Assembly: GCA_902587125.1 (NCBI GenBank)
Contig: CACIJW010000002.1
Coordinates: forward strand, 62,001-126,000
Length of the DNA: 64,000 nt
Direction of reading: 5' to 3'
From: an uncultured Bacteroidota bacterium
Lineage (GTDB): Bacteria; Bacteroidota; Bacteroidia; Flavobacteriales; BACL11
A program made the translations under genes and the position numbers. Shown piece by piece: positions 3,510-61,065 of the stretch. The notes under the pieces were generated by a model. That model did not search any database. It was not told the origin of the DNA and worked only from the letters and a program-made list of their open reading frames with translations. The stretch's first letter is position 1. Each line of letters starts with the position of its first letter.

Positions 3510-3551
3510 AATTGAATATAGTGTATAAATTACACATATATTTTTTTTGAT

Positions 3552-3559
3552 TATTTTTG
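3552..3559 (+). promoter_or_regulatory. -7 promoter box TATTTTTG for the adhesin gene
   Basis: The octamer matches the Bacteroidota -7 consensus TANNTTTG. It ends 5 nt before the ATG at 3565, so transcription should start at or next to the start codon. No clear -33 TTG/TTTG element is visible at the usual spacing. Confidence 0.5.
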
Positions 3560-3564
3560 TTGGT

Positions 3565-6500
3565 ATGGGCAAAAATAAATTCTTACTGGAGATAATATTT
3601 CTTTTTTTTGCTTTTAACGCATATTCACAAACAACAACTGTTACTACATCAATTTGTGATGGTGATAGTATTTTTTTGCAAGGAGCTTGGCAAAATAGCG
3701 CTGGAACATATACTGATGTTACTAGCTCAGGAACAATTATTACAAATTTAGTTATCAATCCACTTCCAGTAATTACTCCAAATTTTATATTTAATGGAAC
3801 AGCTGTTGTTCAACCAGGTAATGTATTTCAGTTAACTCAGGCAACAAATGGTCAAGCAGGATCAGTTTGGAACAATATTATGATAAATTTAAACCAACCC
3901 TTCAGCTTTGATGTTGATGTCTTTTTAGGATGCAATGGAGGTGGCGCTGATGGTATAGCTTTTGTTCTGCAGCCAGTTAGTACATCTCTTGGCTTTACTG
4001 GAGGTGGAATTGGATATCAAAGTATTTCGCCTTCATTTGCAGTTGAATTTGATACCTGGCTCAATAGTCAATATTCAGATCCTTGGTATAATCACGCAGC
4101 TATTCAAAAAAATGGAAATTTAAACCATACAGGTCCTTCAAACTTAGCAGGTCCTGTTGGATTTCCTCCAACTGGTTTTTCATCTATTGAGGATTGTCAG
4201 TGGCACAAAGCAATTTTTAATTGGGATCCTGCAACTACAAATTTTACACTAGATTTTGACGGTGTCCAAATATTAAATTATACAGGTGATATTGTTAATA
4301 CTATCTTTAATGGAAACCCAAATGTTTACTGGGGATTCACTGGCTCAACTGGTGGTGCAAATAATTTACAAAGATTTAGATTTAACTATGATTTACCAGA
4401 CACAACAATATGTCAAAATGATTCCATCATAATTAACTCTTTGACAACTGCTAGTTCCTTTACATATAATTGGTCACCAAACTATAATATTTCAAATAAT
4501 ACTTTAGCCGCTCCGCTGTTTTACCCAGACACTACAACTATCTACACATTAGATATAACAAACACTTACGGTTGTACATACACTGATTCATTTACAATTA
4601 ATGTTGATACAACAGCTACTGTAACATTTCCAAGTATTCCTCAACTTTGTGTTGGTGACAGTGCTATTAATTTGAATCTATCTCCATTTGGAGGGACATT
4701 GACTGGCTCCGGACTAATTGGAGTGAATAATGGATTTTTTAATCCAACTCAAAATCTTATTGGGTCATATAATTTAACGTATTCTATTTCAAACCCTCTC
4801 ACTGGTTGTAGTGATTCAAAAACTCAAAGTATTGTTGTCAACGATACTCCTGTTCTGTCAGTAGTTTCCACTAATGTTTCAACCTGCTTAGGAAATGATG
4901 GTTCCGTCGATGTCAGTGTTACAGGAGGAAGTAATCCTATTAACTATGCTTGGAATAATGGACAAACAACACAGGATTTAAATAACATAGCAGCAGGTAA
5001 TTATTCAGTAATTGCCACAGATGTAAACGGATGTCAAGATACTATATCTACATCAATTACTCAACCTAGTCCACCAACTATAATTTTCAGCAAATCAAAT
5101 GTTTCTTGCTTTGGATTTAACGATGGTAGTATTGATGTTACTGTTTTTGGTGGTCAATCACCTTATTCATATTCTTGGTCAAATGGTGCAACCTCTGAAG
5201 ATTTAAATAATTTATCAGCAGGTTTTTACTATTTGACCGTTACCGATTCAAACAACTGTGTTGTTTCACAAGGTATAGTAATTGATCAACCTAGTGAAAT
5301 ATTCATAAATTCTACAACAACTGATGTGTCTTGCTTTGGTTATAGCAACGGTAATGCTCAATTAAACGTTTCAGGAGGAGTATCTCCTTACATCCAAAAC
5401 TGGAATGGATTTAACCCTAATAATCTTTTAGCTGGTACTTATTCATATAATGTAATCGACAGTACTGGGTGCTCAAAAAATGGACAAATAACAATTAATC
5501 AGCCAAGCATACTAAGTGTTTCAAGCACAGTAAATTCTGTTACTTGTTACAATGGTTCCAATGGAAGTGTAGGTTTAAATATTACAGGTGGTACACCTCC
5601 GTATATCTCTAATTGGAACGGATTTAACCCAAATAATCTTTCTCTAGGAACCTACAGCTACACCGTTACTGATTTTAACAATTGCTCATACACTGATTCA
5701 GTTTATATTTCACAACCAAGTCCTATACAGGTTTCTTCCAATACTTATGATGCAACATGTTATGGATATAACGATGGATATGTAATTTTAAATATATCAG
5801 GAGGTACACTTCCTTATACACAGAACTGGGGGACTTATGATCCAAATAATTTATTTGCTGGCACTTACAATTATGACATTCTTGACTCTAATGGATGTAT
5901 ATACAGCGATATCATTACTATTTTGGAACCATCTGCTGTGACAGCAGTAATAGATACATTTAGAGCAAGTTGTTTTGGTTACAATGATGGTTATGTTTTA
6001 ACATCCTTTGTTGGAGGCACTCCGCCTTATGTTGTTGACTGGGGGAGTTTTGATCCTAACAATCTTTCTGCTGGAACTTATAATTTTTCTGTTACTGATT
6101 CAAGCTCTTGTGTTTATCAGTTTCAAGCTACAATAAGCCAACCTGAAGATATTTTAATAAATGAGATTACAAGTAATGTAAGTTGTTTCGGTTTTTCAGA
6201 TGGAACAGCATCTCTTACGATAAGTGGAGGCACACAACCCTATAATGTTGATTGGGGTGGTATTGATATTAATAACCTCTCTAGTGGTGTTTATGTTTAT
6301 AGCGTTAATGACGCAAATGGATGTGAAAAGAATGATTTTATAAATATTACACAACCAGATGAACTGATTGTAACGGAAATTGTTGATGAGGTAAGTTGTT
6401 TTAACTACAATGACGGCTCTGTTTTCTTAAATATATCTGGAGGTACACTTCCCTACATTCAGAACTGGAATGGATTCAATCCTAATCAATTATATACAGG

Positions 6501-7599
6501 CATTTATAATTACGATGTAGTAGATGCCAATGGATGTGATTTTTCATCAAATGTTTTTGTTGATCAAGCTAATAAAGTACTAGCGAACTTTTCAATTACT
6601 CCTCAAGTATGTGAAAATAGTAACGTAACAATCAATTTTGATATTGTCAATCCAAATTCAAATTTTTATTACGCCAAAATTATTGATGCTGATGGTTATG
6701 TTCATGAATTCTCAATTGATTCTTCAGGAAATCCATTTTATTTTGATCAAACTCTTGAATTTATACCTCTAACAAGTGGAGAGGTAATTTTTGAACTCAT
6801 CTCTGATGAATTTGGTTGCCAAAGCGGAATTTTTGATACTAGCTTTACAATTGTTAATAAAAATCCAAATCTGCAAATGACAATCGATGACCTTTGCATT
6901 AATTCAAGTTCTTTTGAGCTCAATCAAGCAATACCTTCAGGAGGAATATACAGCATCAACGATATTGATCAAAACATTTTTAATACGGAGGAATTAGGTG
7001 TTGGTAGTCATCTTGTCAACTATTATTATAAAGATTTAAATACTGGATGTTCTAATTCTATTTCTGATTTAGTTGAAATATTTGATTATCCAAAGGCAAA
7101 TATTTCTATTAGTCCTTCAATCACAGATTCTTTAAACGGAAATATTTATTTTAGTTCAGATTCAGAAAGAGCTAAATATTTTTACTGGTATAGCGACACA
7201 ATACTATTTTCAAACCAGCAAGAATTTTGGTATGAATATGATAGAGTTGGGGAGTATTCAATTAATTTGGTTGTTTATGATGATTTTGGTTGTTCAGACA
7301 GTGCCAATGGTAATTTAGTTATTAATCCTGTTTTTTCAGTATTTATACCTAATTCTTTTACACCTGGAGACAATGATCAAGTGAATAATTATTTTGGTCC
7401 AGTAACTTATTCGGAATCAAGTTTTATTATTTCAATTTATAATAGTTGGGGACAAAAAATATATGAATCTTCAGAGTTTTGGGATGGTAAGGTAGACGGT
7501 AATTTTGTACCACCAGGTACCTACACCTATTATATAGAAGTGATTGACTTCAAAGGAAAACCAGTAGATTTCTCTGGAAAACTTCAGATAATTAGATAA
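3565..7599 (+). CDS. Exported lectin/SprB-repeat adhesin with T9SS C-terminal (gliding-type) domain
   Basis: The ATG at 3565 is preferred over the TTG at 3547, because the TTG overlaps the promoter box and the ATG gives a clean signal peptide ending in FNAYSQ. The mature protein (1344 residues with signal) has an L-type lectin-like domain near residues 70-275 (GGGADGIAFVLQP, SFAVEFDTWLN), eight SprB-type repeats of about 71 residues (pattern SCFGxxDG ... GGxxPY ... NNLxxGxYxYxVxDxxGC), a less regular stretch, and a final CHU_C/gliding-motility C-terminal domain (FIPNSFTPGDND, SWGQKIYES, PPGTYTYYIEV). That last domain is a type IX secretion sorting signal (type B), so the protein should be secreted by the PorT/PorX-linked system found elsewhere in the window. 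Likely role: surface adhesion or glycan binding. Confidence 0.9.
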   Translation: MGKNKFLLEIIFLFFAFNAYSQTTTVTTSICDGDSIFLQGAWQNSAGTYTDVTSSGTIITNLVINPLPVITPNFIFNGTAVVQPGNVFQLTQATNGQAGSVWNNIMINLNQPFSFDVDVFLGCNGGGADGIAFVLQPVSTSLGFTGGGIGYQSISPSFAVEFDTWLNSQYSDPWYNHAAIQKNGNLNHTGPSNLAGPVGFPPTGFSSIEDCQWHKAIFNWDPATTNFTLDFDGVQILNYTGDIVNTIFNGNPNVYWGFTGSTGGANNLQRFRFNYDLPDTTICQNDSIIINSLTTASSFTYNWSPNYNISNNTLAAPLFYPDTTTIYTLDITNTYGCTYTDSFTINVDTTATVTFPSIPQLCVGDSAINLNLSPFGGTLTGSGLIGVNNGFFNPTQNLIGSYNLTYSISNPLTGCSDSKTQSIVVNDTPVLSVVSTNVSTCLGNDGSVDVSVTGGSNPINYAWNNGQTTQDLNNIAAGNYSVIATDVNGCQDTISTSITQPSPPTIIFSKSNVSCFGFNDGSIDVTVFGGQSPYSYSWSNGATSEDLNNLSAGFYYLTVTDSNNCVVSQGIVIDQPSEIFINSTTTDVSCFGYSNGNAQLNVSGGVSPYIQNWNGFNPNNLLAGTYSYNVIDSTGCSKNGQITINQPSILSVSSTVNSVTCYNGSNGSVGLNITGGTPPYISNWNGFNPNNLSLGTYSYTVTDFNNCSYTDSVYISQPSPIQVSSNTYDATCYGYNDGYVILNISGGTLPYTQNWGTYDPNNLFAGTYNYDILDSNGCIYSDIITILEPSAVTAVIDTFRASCFGYNDGYVLTSFVGGTPPYVVDWGSFDPNNLSAGTYNFSVTDSSSCVYQFQATISQPEDILINEITSNVSCFGFSDGTASLTISGGTQPYNVDWGGIDINNLSSGVYVYSVNDANGCEKNDFINITQPDELIVTEIVDEVSCFNYNDGSVFLNISGGTLPYIQNWNGFNPNQLYTGIYNYDVVDANGCDFSSNVFVDQANKVLANFSITPQVCENSNVTINFDIVNPNSNFYYAKIIDADGYVHEFSIDSSGNPFYFDQTLEFIPLTSGEVIFELISDEFGCQSGIFDTSFTIVNKNPNLQMTIDDLCINSSSFELNQAIPSGGIYSINDIDQNIFNTEELGVGSHLVNYYYKDLNTGCSNSISDLVEIFDYPKANISISPSITDSLNGNIYFSSDSERAKYFYWYSDTILFSNQQEFWYEYDRVGEYSINLVVYDDFGCSDSANGNLVINPVFSVFIPNSFTPGDNDQVNNYFGPVTYSESSFIISIYNSWGQKIYESSEFWDGKVDGNFVPPGTYTYYIEVIDFKGKPVDFSGKLQIIR
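4852..6573 (+). repeat. Eight tandem SprB-type repeats (about 213-216 bp each)
   Basis: Eight in-frame units follow one another inside the adhesin. Each starts with a beta-strand and a Cys (SCFG, TCYG, SCFN), has a DG/NG turn, a GG-x2-PY motif, an aromatic W, NNL, and ends DxxGC followed by QPS. Units 3 to 8 share the WNGFNPNNL-like variant, so they are more alike than units 1 and 2, consistent with local duplication. DNA identity is moderate, not exact. Confidence 0.9.
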
Positions 7600-12607: not shown

Positions 12608-15600
12608 TTATAAAATTTTTGATAATCCAAATAACCATCTGAACTGTAAAAAATCATCATCAGTTGCTGGTGGTCTATTTAAAAATAGAGGAAAGTCAAA
12701 TCTTATTATAAGAGGATTAATAGTTTCTAATGGAGTCCACTCAGAAATATTAAATAAAAAACCTATACCAGCGTCAGCTCTTATTTCTGAAAAAGTATCT
12801 ATAAAATTTTCTCGAGTCAATTCTTTATTGGTAATAATACCTGCATCAGCAAAAATATATGGTTTTATGCCAATAGTATTTATTGATCTTGGAATTAAAC
12901 TAGTAAATTCAATTTCTAAATTAATAGAACCACCACTTGTTCCATTATAGCCAAAAAAATCAAAATTACCATTGTCATCATATTCTGGAGCTAGATAGCC
13001 AGAATATCCCCTTAGATTTAAGCCACCTGAATGATGAAAATTATTAATGCTCTCACCATATTCTAAATATTCTGAATTTATAAATCCTTTTGATCTAGTA
13101 AACTTATTGTTCATCATGTTCTCAAGATTTGATCCTGATAAATAAAGTTTACTTTCCGGAGCCCAATTAGAACCATTTCCAAATTGGAAAAAAGCTCTAC
13201 TTCTAAAAATTAGTTTATTTAATTTTCTATTATTAGTAGCAGTGAAAATTAATTTAGTGTAGTCATAGTCACTTAAAAAACCAGAGTTCATTAAATCAAT
13301 AGATAAAAGACCATTTCCTGAGTGATCTCCGCTGTAAAACTTAGTTAAGTTAATATCAATTCTATTATTAAATAAACCATAGGCCCAATCCTCATGAATT
13401 AAATAATTAGATACATTTGGGTTATTTCTATACAAAGATTTAAGTTTAATATTAACTTGAAATTTTTCATTTCTACTTTTATTTAAAAGGTTTATTTCAT
13501 TAGTTGCTAATCCATCTAACATGCTAGAATATATGGAGAAACTTGAGTTTTTTGTCAGTAAATCAAGATTGTGTTTGTAATAAGCCCTAAATGAAAATTT
13601 ATCATGTTCTTCTCTCTGATCAAAACCCTCTTGCATCATAGCTGAATTAATCCAAAAATTCAAGTCAAATATATGGTGATGCTTCATATATCCACCATTA
13701 ACATGAATTCCATATTTAATTCCGTCATAACTATTCCACCATATATCAGGTCTATATTTTATCTCATAATTTCTCCAGTCAGGATATTGCCAGATATTAT
13801 GATCTAGTGCATAATTAATATTTCGTTTTAAAGAATTGTCTGGCATATAACAATCTCCAAGTCTTTCTGATGGATCAATTATTACATCTTCAATTCCATT
13901 TGGAATATTTACAACTGTTTTGTAAGTAGGGTGAACCAAATCCCAGCCATGCCATTTTTCAAGAACTTTAGCTTCAGTTTCTTTTATAAACCATTGATTT
14001 GGAATATGAAATTTATATTTTTTCTTGTCTTTAGCTATTACTGTGAAGTCAATTGGAGATTGCATTCTTTTTTTTCTTTCAAAATGTAATTCATATTTGT
14101 CATTTCCAATTTTATTTACCTTATTTATCGAGTAATCTAATCTTTTATCTGTTTCTAACCACTGATCGAAAAACCAATTAAGGTCAACTTTTGTGTAGTT
14201 AATAATTACATTCCTAAAATCATCGTCATAGGGGTGTGCCATTTTCCATGTATTGAAGTAGTGTTTCATTGATTTTAAAAATAATTCATCACCAAGTACA
14301 TATTGTAAATTATATAACATTGCTGCAGTTTTATAATAAACATGTCTATACCCACCACCATGTCCATGAGCATCATCAAATTGATCTGAATGAGTCGCAA
14401 GAACTGGGTCTTTTTGTTTTGTTGCGTCTTTTATATATGAATAATAAATTTCACTGTCTATCGCTCTAAAGGGCTTATAAAACTTTGATTTATACCAATT
14501 AGTTCTCTTGTTTTCAATCATAAATTCACCATCAATTTTAATTAAAGCCCAAGCTGTTAAAAATTGAGTAAAACCTTCATCTAAAAGAGCTCTGTAAGTT
14601 TCATTATTACCAATTTGACCGAAGAACCACATATGTCCTATCTCATGAGCAAGAAGATCTCTATATCCAGGATCAGAACCACGATCAAGAGTAATCATCG
14701 GATATTCCATTCCATCTTGCGCATCAGCAACAATAACTTTATGATAGACATATTCTCCAAAGTCCTCAGAAAAAACTTTAAGGCACTCAGCACCAAAATC
14801 TGCAGCATTTAGCCATCTTGATGCATGAGGTTCTTGTACTAAAGAATAACATACTTTATCCTTCCATCTTGCCTCTCCAATTCTATATGTTGGATCTGCG
14901 GTAAATGCAAAGTCGTGAACATTTTCAGCATGAAAATACCATGTTTTTCTATTGTTCTTGTTGTATGGAATTATAACAGAAGGTTCACTGTTCCATTTTT
15001 TATTTGCAAAGTTTTTTAGATCTAATTTTTCTCTAAGTTCATCAGGTAAAACCTCACCTCTGTTTACTAAATTTCCTGTTGCTTCAACAATAAAATTTGA
15101 GGCAAAGGTTAATCTGACATCAAATGTTCCAAAATTACCATAGAACTCTCTGCCTAAATGTTGATCCTTTGTCCATCCAAATTTACTATCATATACACAA
15201 ATTCTTGGATACCAATGAACCCCGTTGTAGTGTTTATAACCCCAACTCTCATAACTTTTCATTCTTCTTCTAACACTTCCCTGATCGAAATATGTTTTAA
15301 AATCAAGTTCAAAAAGTATACTATCTCCCGGAAAAAGAGGCGAGTTAAGGTATATTTTAAAAATTGTGTTGTCTAAATCGGTAATAACATCTTTGTTATC
15401 AACCTTGATTGATTCTATTTTAGTTCCTAAACCTTGCTTTTCATATTTTCCATAAATAGGGTTCTTATGATTTTGTTTTTGAAGTTCATCATAATATGAG
15501 CCCGGCTGAAATGCGTTTTGATATAAATGGAAATAAACTTCATATAGCGTATCGGGAGAATTGTTCCAGTACTTTAACTTTTGAGAGGCAGATATTATAT

Positions 15601-15802
15601 CAGTTTCTTCATTAATTTCAGCATCAATTTCATAATAAACGTCTTGTTGCCAATAGCCTGGATATGGTAATTTGTTTTTCCAATAGTTTGGATTTTCAGA
15701 ACTCATATAGGAATTGGGAGGGTAAAGTGGATCATATTTTATTTGTGCTGATAAATTAATCGAAATTATGCAGAAGAGAAGTATTATGTTTTTAGCTGGC
15801 AT
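12608..15802 (-). CDS. M1-family metallopeptidase fused to an Omp85-like outer-membrane barrel
   Basis: The ATG at 15802 is chosen because it begins a good signal peptide (MPAKNIILLFCIISINLSAQ); the longer frame from 15841 adds 13 residues that bury it. The 1064-residue product has an M1 aminopeptidase part to about residue 580, with HEIGH at residues 386-390 and the third zinc ligand Glu exactly 18 residues later (HEXXH-X18-E). DGMEYP stands near the usual GAMEN position. From about residue 650 the sequence becomes a run of alternating beta strands. It includes GGLNLRGYSGY near residue 929, like the RGF/RGY loop of Omp85 proteins, IKPYIFADAG, RADAGIGFLFN and a last strand ending FRWLFGLSKIL, all typical of the D15/BamA C-terminus. 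No POTRA domain is evident. It overlaps the BrkB gene by 11 nt. Confidence 0.8.
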   Translation of the reverse strand: MPAKNIILLFCIISINLSAQIKYDPLYPPNSYMSSENPNYWKNKLPYPGYWQQDVYYEIDAEINEETDIISASQKLKYWNNSPDTLYEVYFHLYQNAFQPGSYYDELQKQNHKNPIYGKYEKQGLGTKIESIKVDNKDVITDLDNTIFKIYLNSPLFPGDSILFELDFKTYFDQGSVRRRMKSYESWGYKHYNGVHWYPRICVYDSKFGWTKDQHLGREFYGNFGTFDVRLTFASNFIVEATGNLVNRGEVLPDELREKLDLKNFANKKWNSEPSVIIPYNKNNRKTWYFHAENVHDFAFTADPTYRIGEARWKDKVCYSLVQEPHASRWLNAADFGAECLKVFSEDFGEYVYHKVIVADAQDGMEYPMITLDRGSDPGYRDLLAHEIGHMWFFGQIGNNETYRALLDEGFTQFLTAWALIKIDGEFMIENKRTNWYKSKFYKPFRAIDSEIYYSYIKDATKQKDPVLATHSDQFDDAHGHGGGYRHVYYKTAAMLYNLQYVLGDELFLKSMKHYFNTWKMAHPYDDDFRNVIINYTKVDLNWFFDQWLETDKRLDYSINKVNKIGNDKYELHFERKKRMQSPIDFTVIAKDKKKYKFHIPNQWFIKETEAKVLEKWHGWDLVHPTYKTVVNIPNGIEDVIIDPSERLGDCYMPDNSLKRNINYALDHNIWQYPDWRNYEIKYRPDIWWNSYDGIKYGIHVNGGYMKHHHIFDLNFWINSAMMQEGFDQREEHDKFSFRAYYKHNLDLLTKNSSFSIYSSMLDGLATNEINLLNKSRNEKFQVNIKLKSLYRNNPNVSNYLIHEDWAYGLFNNRIDINLTKFYSGDHSGNGLLSIDLMNSGFLSDYDYTKLIFTATNNRKLNKLIFRSRAFFQFGNGSNWAPESKLYLSGSNLENMMNNKFTRSKGFINSEYLEYGESINNFHHSGGLNLRGYSGYLAPEYDDNGNFDFFGYNGTSGGSINLEIEFTSLIPRSINTIGIKPYIFADAGIITNKELTRENFIDTFSEIRADAGIGFLFNISEWTPLETINPLIIRFDFPLFLNRPPATDDDFLQFRWLFGLSKIL

Positions 15803-16637
15803 TTTTATTAATTTTTTTTGAAAAGGTTGTATTGAGCTCAAATCCCAAAATTAGTATAAAAGAATTAAAATACATCCATAATAAAATGATCATTAGAGTT
15901 CCAATTGAACCATATAATTTGTTATAGGTGTCAAAATTATTTATGTAAATACTAAAAAGTATCGAAGTTATAATTATAAATAAAGAGGAAAAAACAGAGC
16001 CAATATTTATAAATCTAAATTTTGCTTTTTTGTTTGCAAGAAAGAAAATAATTGTTATTCCACTGTACAGAGATGCAAACAATATTAACCATTTTGAAAA
16101 CATAAACATTTTTATCGAACTAATATTTACTAAATTTTCGCTAATCAAGAATGATATAAGTTTTTCCCCTAATATGATAAATAGAATTGATAAAATTACA
16201 AGTAGAGTAATGATTATAGTTATCTCAAGTGCTATTAACCTTTTTTTAAAAAATCCAATTTCATTGTTAACATGGTATGATGCATCAAAAGCCTCTAATA
16301 GCGAATAAGCTCCATTAGTTGAGAAAAAAATTGTTAGTAAAAAACCTATAGATAATAATTCAGCTCTGGGATTACTTAATACATCATTTATTAAAAATAA
16401 TACTGAATCATTTGTCATTGGTGGTAATATATCAATAATGATTTCAAATATCCTTTTTTGAAAATCAGTAACTGGTATATAAGGTATAAGTGTAAATAGA
16501 AAAATTAGAGCAGGAAAAAAAGCTAAAAAGAAATTAAAAGCGATTGAAGAGGCTCTTGTTGAAATTGCCCCTTTTTTTAATCCATTAAAAAAGAATAGTA
16601 ATATTTCTTTTAGCTCATATTTATTTAAAAAATTCAC
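15792..16637 (-). CDS. YihY/BrkB-family inner-membrane protein
   Basis: The 281-residue protein has about six hydrophobic segments. Family hallmarks are STRASSIAFNFFLAFFPALIFLFTLIP near the N-terminus (written here only as a landmark in two parts: TRASSIAFNFF and LAFFPALIFL), SPRA-like NPRAELLSIG, and YHVNNEIGFFKKR. BrkB/YihY proteins are sometimes annotated as RNase BN in error; the real function is not settled. Its stop overlaps the start of the M1-barrel gene, and its start abuts the nadC stop, so the three genes form an operon. Confidence 0.82.
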   Translation of the reverse strand: MNFLNKYELKEILLFFFNGLKKGAISTRASSIAFNFFLAFFPALIFLFTLIPYIPVTDFQKRIFEIIIDILPPMTNDSVLFLINDVLSNPRAELLSIGFLLTIFFSTNGAYSLLEAFDASYHVNNEIGFFKKRLIALEITIIITLLVILSILFIILGEKLISFLISENLVNISSIKMFMFSKWLILFASLYSGITIIFFLANKKAKFRFINIGSVFSSLFIIITSILFSIYINNFDTYNKLYGSIGTLMIILLWMYFNSFILILGFELNTTFSKKINKNAS

Positions 16638-17476
16638 TATTTCAAAATTAATAAGCTCATGTCAAAACATTCAACACTGTGAGTTAGAGAACCACAGGAA
16701 ATAAAATCAACTCCACATTCTGCATATTCAACAATGTTATCAAAATCTATATTACCTGACGATTCAATTTTAAATATGTTTCTGCATATATCAACTGCTT
16801 TATTTGTGTGATTGATATTAAAATTATCCAAAATAACTCTGTTGATTTCTTTAAATTGCAATATTTTCTTTAACTCATCAACGCTTCTAACTTCAACAAT
16901 TATATTATATTTAAGATTATTCTTCTTTAAATAGTTGATTGTTTTTTTTACAGTTGTTTGAATATCTTCATTAAAGTCGATATGGTTATCTTTAATCATG
17001 ATTTCATCATATAATCCAAATCGGTGATTAGTACCTCCACCAATTCTTACAGCCCATTTTTCTATTATTCGATTGAGTGGTGTTGTTTTTCTAGTATCGA
17101 GGATTTTACAATCAGTATGATTAATTAAATTTTGAAATTTTTTTGTTTTGGTAGCTATTCCACTCATTCTTTGCATTGAATTTAAAACAAATCTTTCTTT
17201 AGCTAGTATTTCTCTTGCATTTCCACTCACCGATAATAACTTTTGACCATTTTTAATTTTTTCTCCATCAGAAACAAGTCTTGTAAATACTAGATTGGTA
17301 CTATTGAATTCAAAGATTTGTTTAGCCAATTCTATACCAGCAATTATACCTTCGTCTTTAGAAATAAGTACAGCAGATGTCCTCTTACTTTTTTCTATGC
17401 AAGATAATGATGTTATATCCCCATTTTTGATATCTTCTTCAAGTGAATCTGAAATAAACTTTTCTAAATTTTCCAT
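16637..17476 (-). CDS. nadC: Nicotinate-nucleotide pyrophosphorylase (quinolinate phosphoribosyltransferase)
   Basis: The 279-residue product converts quinolinate and PRPP to nicotinate mononucleotide in de novo NAD synthesis. Signature segments are DITSLSCI near the N-terminus, RMSGIATKTKKF, the phosphoribosyl-binding DTRKTTPLNR, GGGTNHRFGLYDEIMIKDNHI, EVRSVDEL and the C-terminal SSGNI and ISCGSLTHS. Length is normal for the family. It leads the nadC-brkB-M1 operon; the latter two have no obvious metabolic link to NAD. Confidence 0.95.
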   Translation of the reverse strand: MENLEKFISDSLEEDIKNGDITSLSCIEKSKRTSAVLISKDEGIIAGIELAKQIFEFNSTNLVFTRLVSDGEKIKNGQKLLSVSGNAREILAKERFVLNSMQRMSGIATKTKKFQNLINHTDCKILDTRKTTPLNRIIEKWAVRIGGGTNHRFGLYDEIMIKDNHIDFNEDIQTTVKKTINYLKKNNLKYNIIVEVRSVDELKKILQFKEINRVILDNFNINHTNKAVDICRNIFKIESSGNIDFDNIVEYAECGVDFISCGSLTHSVECFDMSLLILK

Positions 17477-58282: not shown

Positions 58283-59488
58283 TTATTTAACATAGCAAAG
58301 AAAGTATTTTTTTTTGTTGGTTGACATGCTGAATTTTATTCGTTTGGATATTTCAGAAATATCTAATGTATCCCTATTTTTTTTAAGTATCTCAATTTTT
58401 TTTTCATATTCATCATAAAGTTTGTTAGAAATTGTGTCAGTGAAAATAAAATAACTTGAAATCTTTTCATTTACACCATGTTTTTTTTTGAAGTTTTTTA
58501 TGAGATTAGAAATTAGATCTTTATTAAATTCTTTGTCGGAAAACTCTATTTTTAGAAGTTCTCTGCTGATAAGCATTTTTGAAAGCTTTGAAAGTACAAA
58601 ATCTTTGGAACACATTGATTCTTTGAGTAGTTGAACTATATCACTGTCGTCAATTTCTGCAAAGATTTTTAGTTTGTTTTGAGTTGAAAGTTTAGTAGAT
58701 AATAATTCTTTGAACTTATTATTGAGTATATCATTTTTTCCACATTTTTGTAAATACTTATATCTTTTGAAAAAATTAAGTAACATCTTTTCTGCAATAA
58801 CCACAGTTTTATGTAAGTATACTTGCCAGTACATAAATTGTCTTGATATTAAAAATTTTTCTATTGAATATATAGCTTTTTCTTCAGCAACTAACTGATT
58901 GCCACTAATGTTAAGCATGTTTATTAGTCTGTCTGATCCAATATTACCCTCTACGACACCAGTGTAAAAACTATCCCTTTTTATGTAGTCAAGTCTATCA
59001 ATATCAAGCTGAGATGATACGAGTTGATTCAAAAATCTTTTTTTGTGATTATTTGTAAATATTTTTATGCATCCAGACAATTTTTTTTTAAATTTTTCGT
59101 TTAAAATTTGCATGAACATAAGAGATATTTTTTCATGATTATGATCATCAATGATAACATTTTCAAGAGCATGAGAGAATGGACCATGACCTATGTCGTG
59201 AAGCAATATTGCTAATTTCAAATCAATGGCTTCTTTCTTACTAATGAAATTACCTTTGTTGTTCAGATGAGTAATGACTTTTTGCATTAAATGTAAAGTT
59301 CCTAATGCATGTTGAAATCTAGTATGATTAGCTCCTGGATAGACTAAGTTGACTAGTCCTAGTTGGCTAATTCTTCTTAGTCTTTGAAAATATGGATGTT
59401 CTATTATCTCATGAATAATAGGTTCTTTAATGCTTATTATTCCATATATAGGGTCGTTAATGATTTTATCTTTTATATTTTTATGCAT
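58283..59488 (-). CDS. HD-domain nucleotide phosphohydrolase-like protein
   Basis: The 401-residue product has HPYFQRLRRISQLGLVNLVY, GANHTRFQHALGTLHLM, and the metal-binding LLHDIGHGPFSHALENV, the dGTPase/SAMHD1-like HD signature. A dNTP triphosphohydrolase role is likely but the exact nucleotide is unknown. It starts 29 nt from porX, which runs the other way, and is the first gene of the lpx operon, as in many other Bacteroidota. Confidence 0.9.
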   Translation of the reverse strand: MHKNIKDKIINDPIYGIISIKEPIIHEIIEHPYFQRLRRISQLGLVNLVYPGANHTRFQHALGTLHLMQKVITHLNNKGNFISKKEAIDLKLAILLHDIGHGPFSHALENVIIDDHNHEKISLMFMQILNEKFKKKLSGCIKIFTNNHKKRFLNQLVSSQLDIDRLDYIKRDSFYTGVVEGNIGSDRLINMLNISGNQLVAEEKAIYSIEKFLISRQFMYWQVYLHKTVVIAEKMLLNFFKRYKYLQKCGKNDILNNKFKELLSTKLSTQNKLKIFAEIDDSDIVQLLKESMCSKDFVLSKLSKMLISRELLKIEFSDKEFNKDLISNLIKNFKKKHGVNEKISSYFIFTDTISNKLYDEYEKKIEILKKNRDTLDISEISKRIKFSMSTNKKKYFLCYVK

Positions 59489-59517
59489 TGGTAATAAAAT
59501 ATAAAATTAATAATAAT

Positions 59518-61065
59518 ATGGTTTCTATTCTTTGGGTTGATGATGAAATTGATTTACTAAAACCACATATTATATATTTGAATCAAAAGGGATATAATGT
59601 GCAAAGCTCTAGAAGCGGTGATGAAGCTCTTGATTTATTAAAGCTTGAAACCTTTGATTTAATTTTTTTGGATGAAAATATGACAGGTCTTTCTGGACTT
59701 GAAACTCTTGCTCTGATTAAAGAAAAATATCCAAGAGTGCCTGTAATAATGATAACGAAAAATGAGGAGGAAAGTATTATGGACGAGGCTATTGGATCTA
59801 AAATATCGGATTACCTTATAAAGCCTGTAAATCCAAGGCAAATATTATTGGCCATCAAAAAAAATATTGAAACTAACCAGCTAGTAAGACAAAAAATGAT
59901 TAGGAGATATCAATCAGAATTTAATAAATTAAGTCGTGATATTTCATCAAATCTCGATCATAATGAATGGAAAGACTTATACAAGAGAATTGTTTTTTGG
60001 GAGTTAGAAATAGGTTCTTACTCTGATGTAGAGATAAGTGATATATTAGAAATGCAAAAAGTTCAAGCAAATAATCAATTTTGTAAGTTTATTACAAAGA
60101 ATTATAAATCTTGGCTTCATAATAACAACTCTCCGCTACTTTCAAATAAAGTATTTCAAACAAAAGTTTTCCCTGAAATTGAAAAAAATAAAACACTATA
60201 CTTTGTATTAATTGATAATTTGAGATATGATCAATGGAAGATGATCAGCTCGCTCGTTTCAAAAGATTTTGATGTATTAGATGATGATATTTACTACAGT
60301 ATTCTTCCTACCTCTACTCAATATTCAAGAAATTCATTATTCTCAGGATTATTACCTCTTGAAATTCAGAAAAAGTTTCCAGAGTTCTGGAGAAATGATT
60401 CAGATGAGGGTGGAAAAAATATGTATGAGGAGTTATTTTTAAGAAAATTAGTAGATGAAAAATTTAATCATGACATCAAATTATCATACAATAAGATTAC
60501 TAATATTGATTTTGGTAGAAAATTCGTTAATCAAATTAATAATCTTTCAAATAATGAGTTAAATGTAATAGTTTACAATTTTGTAGACATGCTATCTCAT
60601 GCTAGAACAGATATGAAAGTAATTAAAGAACTGGCAGAAGATGATTATGCTTACAGATCATTAACACTTTCTTGGTTTGAGCATTCTCCATTGAGAGAAA
60701 TATTAAGAAAAATTTCAGACCATGGAGCAAAACTCATTATCACTACTGATCATGGAACAATTAATGTTGAGAAACCAATTAAAATCATCGGAGATAGAAA
60801 TGTAAATTCTAATCTAAGATATAAACAGGGTAAAAATTTAAATTTTAAAGCTAATGAAGTCTTTGAAATTTCTGACCCACATAGTTATTTTTTACCAAAA
60901 CAAAATATCAGCTCTAAATTCATATTTAACACTGAAAAAAACTATTTTGTTTATCAAAATAACTACAATAATTTCGTAAATTTTTATAAGAATACATATC
61001 AACATGGTGGAATTTCTATGGAAGAAATGCTTGTACCCATCATTAAGTTAAATTCGAAAAAATAA
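59518..61065 (+). CDS. porX: PorX: response regulator with PglZ-type phosphatase domain (T9SS regulator)
   Basis: The ATG at 59518 starts MVSILWVDDEIDLLKPHI; the TTG at 59488 would add 10 residues of non-conserved sequence. The 515-residue protein has a receiver domain with the phospho-acceptor Asp52 (LIFLDENMTGLSG), and a C-terminal alkaline-phosphatase-like PglZ domain with VLIDNLRYDQWKMI, STQYSRNSLFSG and ITTDHGTINV. PorX works with the PorY kinase to control type IX secretion. It is followed by tsaE with no gap. Confidence 0.93.
   Translation: MVSILWVDDEIDLLKPHIIYLNQKGYNVQSSRSGDEALDLLKLETFDLIFLDENMTGLSGLETLALIKEKYPRVPVIMITKNEEESIMDEAIGSKISDYLIKPVNPRQILLAIKKNIETNQLVRQKMIRRYQSEFNKLSRDISSNLDHNEWKDLYKRIVFWELEIGSYSDVEISDILEMQKVQANNQFCKFITKNYKSWLHNNNSPLLSNKVFQTKVFPEIEKNKTLYFVLIDNLRYDQWKMISSLVSKDFDVLDDDIYYSILPTSTQYSRNSLFSGLLPLEIQKKFPEFWRNDSDEGGKNMYEELFLRKLVDEKFNHDIKLSYNKITNIDFGRKFVNQINNLSNNELNVIVYNFVDMLSHARTDMKVIKELAEDDYAYRSLTLSWFEHSPLREILRKISDHGAKLIITTDHGTINVEKPIKIIGDRNVNSNLRYKQGKNLNFKANEVFEISDPHSYFLPKQNISSKFIFNTEKNYFVYQNNYNNFVNFYKNTYQHGGISMEEMLVPIIKLNSKK

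Follow-up and report, generated by a model that had tools for sequence, protein, structure and literature searches.

An M1 aminopeptidase joined to an Omp85-type barrel without POTRA in Bacteroidota: a probable membrane-anchored periplasmic enzyme

The window, that is, the whole stretch of 64,000 nucleotides analysed here, derives from a marine Bacteroidota and contains on its minus strand an ORF of 1064 aa (12608-15802), with an ATG at 15802 and a stop at 12608. A plus-strand reading of the same interval was rejected because of its many stops. The product begins with 20 residues that end in SAQ and, judged by eye, fit a Sec-type signal peptide, as had been claimed by the first-pass annotation. 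Upstream lie a YihY/BrkB-family gene, whose end overlaps the start of the M1-barrel gene by 11 bases, and nadC. These features are as follows:

12608-15802, minus strand: whole gene, M1 aminopeptidase and Omp85-type barrel (ORF, conserved frame, purifying selection)
15743-15802, minus strand: signal peptide, residues 1-20, MPAKNIILLFCIISINLSAQ (translation, by eye)
15792-16637, minus strand: YihY/BrkB-family protein, upstream neighbour (Pfam PF03631, E 6e-52)
16637-17476, minus strand: nadC, next upstream, same direction (named by eye)

In the best 80 of at least 535 relatives, many with short flanks, homologues of nadC, YihY and rlmH were found near the M1-barrel gene in 40, 36 and 35 loci, respectively, and clustering of the ORFs at the best 80 loci gave 39, 35 and 34; other neighbours occur in the remaining loci. 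This neighbourhood looks like a gene block kept by shared ancestry more than a dedicated partner, and therefore no function was drawn from it. A literature search for a link between YihY and TamB returned unrelated papers only. Elsewhere in the window, a 1350-aa protein (3547-7599, plus strand) contains a domain of the legume-lectin type as well as SprB repeats and a CHU_C signal for type IX secretion, and another product (59488-61065, plus strand) combines a response regulator with a PglZ domain, a make-up that we take to be that of the type IX secretion regulator PorX.

The N-terminal half of the protein corresponds to an M1 metallopeptidase:

13835-15661, minus strand: M1 peptidase region, residues 48-656 (Pfam, VIA-align, end point of short homologues)
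14576-14647, minus strand: zinc site HEIGH-x18-E at residues 386-409 (H386, E387, H390 and E409 in all 52 ingroup rows)
14699-14713, minus strand: GMEYP at residues 364-368, an exopeptidase motif of the GAMEN type (E366 and Y367 in all 52 ingroup rows)
14336-14338, minus strand: presumed catalytic Tyr489 (Tyr in all 52 ingroup rows and all 9 outgroup rows)

Peptidase_M1 (PF01433) was detected at residues 382-548 (E 1e-13) and is the sole Pfam match in the 1064-aa protein, in which no Pfam match to a patatin domain was obtained. NCBIfam yielded only M1 matches below cut-off for the window protein and four relatives, and sequence searches of NCBIfam and PDB with the whole protein touched the M1 half only and left the barrel half unmatched. 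A spike-protein row at E 0.24 from a whole-protein sequence search falls in the M1 half and was dismissed as spurious. The complete M1 zinc chemistry reported by the first-pass annotation is present, with HEIGH occupying residues 386-390 and E409 as second zinc Glu, at the claimed spacing of 18 residues. Together with E366, Y367 and Y489, the last presumably the catalytic Tyr by its role in M1 enzymes, the residues H386, E387, H390 and E409 are conserved in every one of 52 Bacteroidota relatives, whether or not these have a barrel. The Glu and Tyr of GMEYP and the HEIGH-x18-E residues are invariant in 71 alignment rows; the exact string GMEYP is absent from four of the 78 loci considered among the best 80 relatives. 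Structural comparison with VIA-align matched the M1 fold over 387-482 residues of solved M1 enzymes (Z 26.8-29.7), the matches being tricorn factor F3, IRAP, ERAP1/2, LTA4H and a two-domain Deinococcus M1. With the zinc and catalytic residues present and the fold matched, an active exopeptidase would be the natural expectation.

The C-terminal half was predicted to form a barrel, with the following landmarks:

12611-13768, minus strand: 16-strand Omp85-type barrel, residues 679-1064 (AlphaFold2, Foldseek, VIA-align)
12935-13165, minus strand: loop 6, residues 880-956, containing GGLNLRGY (926-933); 77 residues, between strands 11 and 12
12839-12853, minus strand: FADAG in strand 13, residues 984-988 (invariant positions, BamA 4k3b match)

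AlphaFold2 models were computed for residues 21-1064 from 71 sequences (pLDDT 89.4, pTM 0.86) and for residues 645-1064 alone from 62 sequences (pLDDT 85.1, pTM 0.83). Strands 1 to 8 were placed at residues 679-690, 694-705, 709-719, 736-745, 753-762, 765-775, 781-792 and 811-824, and strands 9 to 15 at 829-840, 847-861, 864-879, 957-965, 979-991, 1008-1019 and 1031-1041; with a low-confidence strand 16 near 1057-1059, the predicted total is 16 strands in the C-terminal 386 residues. The structure check proposed with the first-pass annotation thus returned a barrel and not a soluble domain. All 50 matches listed by Foldseek (E 2.3e-10 to 1.4e-7) and all 50 listed by VIA-align (Z 17.9-19.8, 281-323 residues aligned, rmsd 4.2-6.1) are BamA, TamA or mitochondrial SAM chains, and these models and matches bear out the proposal of an Omp85-type barrel. 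Among them, 5ayw is titled only 'membrane complex' and we take it to be BAM, while the mitochondrial SAM chain is presumably Sam50. The alternation of hydrophobicity expressed as a combined value was p 4e-11 for 15 barrel strands vs p 0.003 for 14 control strands of the M1 half, on a hydrophobicity scale altered for Trp and Tyr.

A (V/L)RG(F/Y) motif in loop 6 and FxDxG in strand 13 are the usual recognition marks of Omp85 proteins, and in BamA the RGY tip of loop 6 occupies the barrel lumen. The C-terminal motifs named by the first-pass annotation were recovered, namely LRGY at 930-933 (claimed near 929), FADAG at 984-988 and GIGFLFN at about residues 1012-1018; G926, G927 and R931 of loop 6 and F984, D986 and G988 of strand 13 (FxDxG) are invariant in 62 rows. 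Profile searches gave fainter signals. The diverse A1 profile matched BamA 4k3b over the RGY and FADAG strands (E 1e-4), and no PDB match was obtained with the close-family A4 profile. PF01103 (Omp85) recognised one of nine A1 members (6.8e-6) and none of 55 A4 members, and Pfam was silent on the window's barrel alone. Against the BamA barrel family of the same genome, hhalign gave a probability of 17% for A1 (P 0.0015) and 0.3% for A4. Judged by sequence, the case for Omp85 membership is weak. PF01103 found no match anywhere in the window's genome, which encodes an ordinary five-POTRA BamA on C1, and the model therefore appears blind to this lineage. The genome also encodes a 480-aa protein (L146:1089-2531, plus strand) with one POTRA and, by eye, a short barrel; this further POTRA protein lies a few genes away from BamA.

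Between the two halves lies a short linker:

13769-13834, minus strand: linker, residues 657-678 (between the end of short M1 forms and strand 1)

Barrel-less M1 homologues stop at about residue 656 and strand 1 begins at 679, which leaves 22 residues, too few for a POTRA (79 positions in the Pfam model); the first-pass annotation was therefore right to describe the barrel as devoid of this domain. At least one POTRA is given as a characteristic of the Omp85 superfamily in the available part of PMC11116518. In that of PMC4104836, Heinz and Lithgow count POTRA-less members as Omp85, so that the claim to the superfamily rests on the barrel.

The M1-barrel design is widespread in Bacteroidota and no peculiarity of this window. 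An A2 alignment scan of contigs from 84,980 species yielded at least 591 stretches, at least 535 of them encoding a relative. Among the best 80, the zinc motif stands in a frame reaching the end of the barrel in 78 loci, the other two being cut by contigs, and the search for the same architecture suggested at the outset was thereby answered. The A3 alignment holds 70 of the 78 loci, the omitted ones being five that contain unread bases and three that are truncated or broken, and the A5 alignment used for the barrel model holds 61 of these 70 plus the window. An M1 match occurs in 225 of 296 Bacteroidota genomes, and 26 of the 296 have a frame of more than 1000 aa spanning the M1 tail and the barrel (in a 27th, G097, the frame is 497 aa). 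Within the order, 42 of 196 genomes, from four family codes (f1, f55, f57 and f63), have a strong barrel match, one each, and a 43rd match is marginal (E 9.6e-4); the barrel was also matched in 47 of the 100 closest genomes. No match was found in viral contigs. As side observations, the fusion gene lies in two frames of 222 and 717 aa at locus L074, and the barrel has its own 421-aa frame at L052, each by sequencing error or a real split.

Both halves are under purifying selection, with the enzyme more constrained. Compared with L062 and L063, dN/dS was 0.024 and 0.039 for M1 and 0.187 and 0.155 for the barrel, and comparisons with L033, L035 and L056 went in the same direction; overall, values against close kin were 0.01-0.05 for M1 and 0.16-0.19 for the barrel. 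Identity to L062 was 99.2% in the M1 half and 91.7% in the barrel.

Many genomes with a short M1 form (about 610-690 aa) also encode a separate barrel of about 400-470 aa, whose match to the profile is confined to the barrel part. Ten such loci were looked at, one of which (L215) proved to be a fusion; the other nine hold ten free-standing barrels, including a tandem pair at L212 (4266-5570 and 5641-6954, minus strand). By eye, these nine loci have no adjoining M1 gene; a GreA-like gene adjoins the barrels, mostly together with Nudix-like and acetate-kinase-like genes. Pfam gave no match for the 10 free-standing barrels, nor did NCBIfam for the one searched. In a tree, the ten free-standing barrels group in a single clade that excludes all 29 fused barrels, and four genomes (G022, G104, G112 and G123) contain both a fusion and a free-standing barrel, so that an origin of the free-standing barrels by fission of the fusion is unsupported. 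In the M1 tree, built by a quick method with a single support value, fused forms fall in several deep groups, with which the 16 short forms (from f6, f9 and f24) are interspersed. The outgroup is not one side of any branch in this tree, which would fit either a loss in the short forms or a gain in the fused ones. The placement of the fused and short forms points to a fusion that is old in the phylum, in deeply separated families. Three proteins placed in the outgroup (L220, L221 and L222) form another deep group, of M1 proteins of 966-1014 aa whose end resembles a barrel; FADAG and YDAGIG occur in L222, which matches M1 and, below threshold, M60 in Pfam, and L220 and L221 match M1 only.

Based on these features, the gene product is probably an outer-membrane-anchored periplasmic aminopeptidase with an Omp85 barrel as its anchor. 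The chain would be exported by Sec and its C-terminal 16-strand barrel inserted into the outer membrane; as in BamA, loop 6 with its LRGY tip would probably fold back inside the barrel. The N-terminal M1 enzyme would hang from strand 1 by the linker of about 22 residues, on the periplasmic side and with no POTRA, and would most likely strip N-terminal residues from peptides near the inner face of the outer membrane, such as peptides imported via outer-membrane transporters or remnants of protein turnover. A barrel of 16 strands has its two ends on one side, which to our knowledge is the periplasm in all outer-membrane barrels of this kind; with loop 6 extracellular as in BamA, this topology would place the M1 domain in the periplasm. 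Loops with odd numbers are longer (19 residues on average) than those with even numbers (6.4), and insertions occupy 63 alignment columns in odd loops vs 18 in even ones, loop 6 being left out. In substitution variability, no difference was seen between the two sets of loops (p 0.98).

Alternatively, the barrel might pass the M1 domain to the cell surface in a type Vd-like self-secretion, yielding the self-presenting surface peptidase envisaged by the first-pass annotation. The order of the chain, enzyme first and barrel last, is that of autotransporters, and a 22-residue linker could in principle thread the barrel; against such a passage stand the long, conserved loop 6, whose RGY tip lies in the lumen in BamA, the lack of a long lumen-filling helix in the predicted secondary structure and the slower evolution of the M1 half. 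AaaA of P. aeruginosa has a classical autotransporter barrel, unrelated to Omp85. It likewise unites an aminopeptidase and an outer-membrane autotransporter in one chain but is tethered to the surface (available part of PMC3426542), which lends the idea some precedent. However, PlpD, a patatin-Omp85 protein and the closest architectural precedent, holds its enzyme domain in the periplasm, and surface export of the passenger is contested even for PlpD (available part of PMC11116518). Strand topology and this precedent therefore favour a periplasmic, membrane-anchored aminopeptidase, and display at the surface is rated as distinctly unlikely.

It is rather unlikely that the barrel is still an Omp85 insertase or translocase in which M1 has taken the place of POTRA as a module for substrate handling or proofreading: the full 16-strand Omp85 fold, the conserved loop 6 and FxDxG positions and the single copy in each of the order's 42 strongly matching genomes would suit such a role, but the fusion protein has no POTRA, an ordinary five-POTRA BamA is encoded in the same genome and related lineages get by with a short M1 to which no barrel is fused. 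The further proposal that the fusions form an old Omp85 subfamily spread across the phylum, with an M1 exopeptidase in the place of POTRA as periplasmic module of a still-active barrel, appears quite unlikely; if true, polypeptides crossing or inserting at the outer membrane would be N-terminally trimmed or proofread there. That the M1 domain is a pseudo-enzyme scaffold is highly improbable, as all the zinc and catalytic residues checked are kept in the 52 sequences. A chance tandem of unrelated domains, brought into one frame by assembly or annotation error, is virtually untenable given its conservation in 78 of the 80 best loci and the fused frames above 1000 aa in 26 genomes of the phylum.

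The preferred reading, an anchored periplasmic aminopeptidase, has several partial counterparts. Short Bacteroidota M1 metallopeptidases share the M1 domain and the catalytic residues but have no barrel, and the free-standing barrels, recognised by the A1 barrel profile, share a PDLWYNxxDG-like start but carry no enzyme domain. PF00149 is, as we understand it, the Metallophos phosphoesterase family. This domain, termed a metalloprotease in PMC4104836, is the one found in the 'Metallo' subfamily, which resembles the fusion in joining a metal-dependent enzyme domain to an Omp85 barrel but is not M1; the ten Omp85 subfamilies defined in the available part of that paper (Heinz and Lithgow 2014) include none with M1, and its barrel-only 'noNterm' subfamily is a putative equivalent of the free-standing barrels found here. 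Patatin-Omp85 proteins (PlpD, type Vd) also have an N-terminal hydrolase and a C-terminal 16-strand Omp85 barrel in one chain (available part of PMC11116518). Their enzyme domain, a patatin, is unrelated to an M1 zinc peptidase, and type Vd has one POTRA between enzyme and barrel, where the fusion has its linker. The likeness to type Vd drawn at first thus stands for an enzyme joined to an Omp85 barrel, here without POTRA, but not for surface display. In the available main text of PMC12611786, on the BAM subunits of F. johnsoniae, the words 'peptidase' and 'aminopeptidase' are absent and no M1 subunit is described. No description of an M1-Omp85 design was found in searches of the open-licence PMC literature.

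With the M1 fusion, a peptidase joins the few enzymes linked to an Omp85 barrel, and the idea that this barrel has been reused as a membrane anchor and not only as a protein-insertion machine gains support. The question of the anchor is testable, since genomes with the fusion can be compared with those having a short M1 and a separate barrel.
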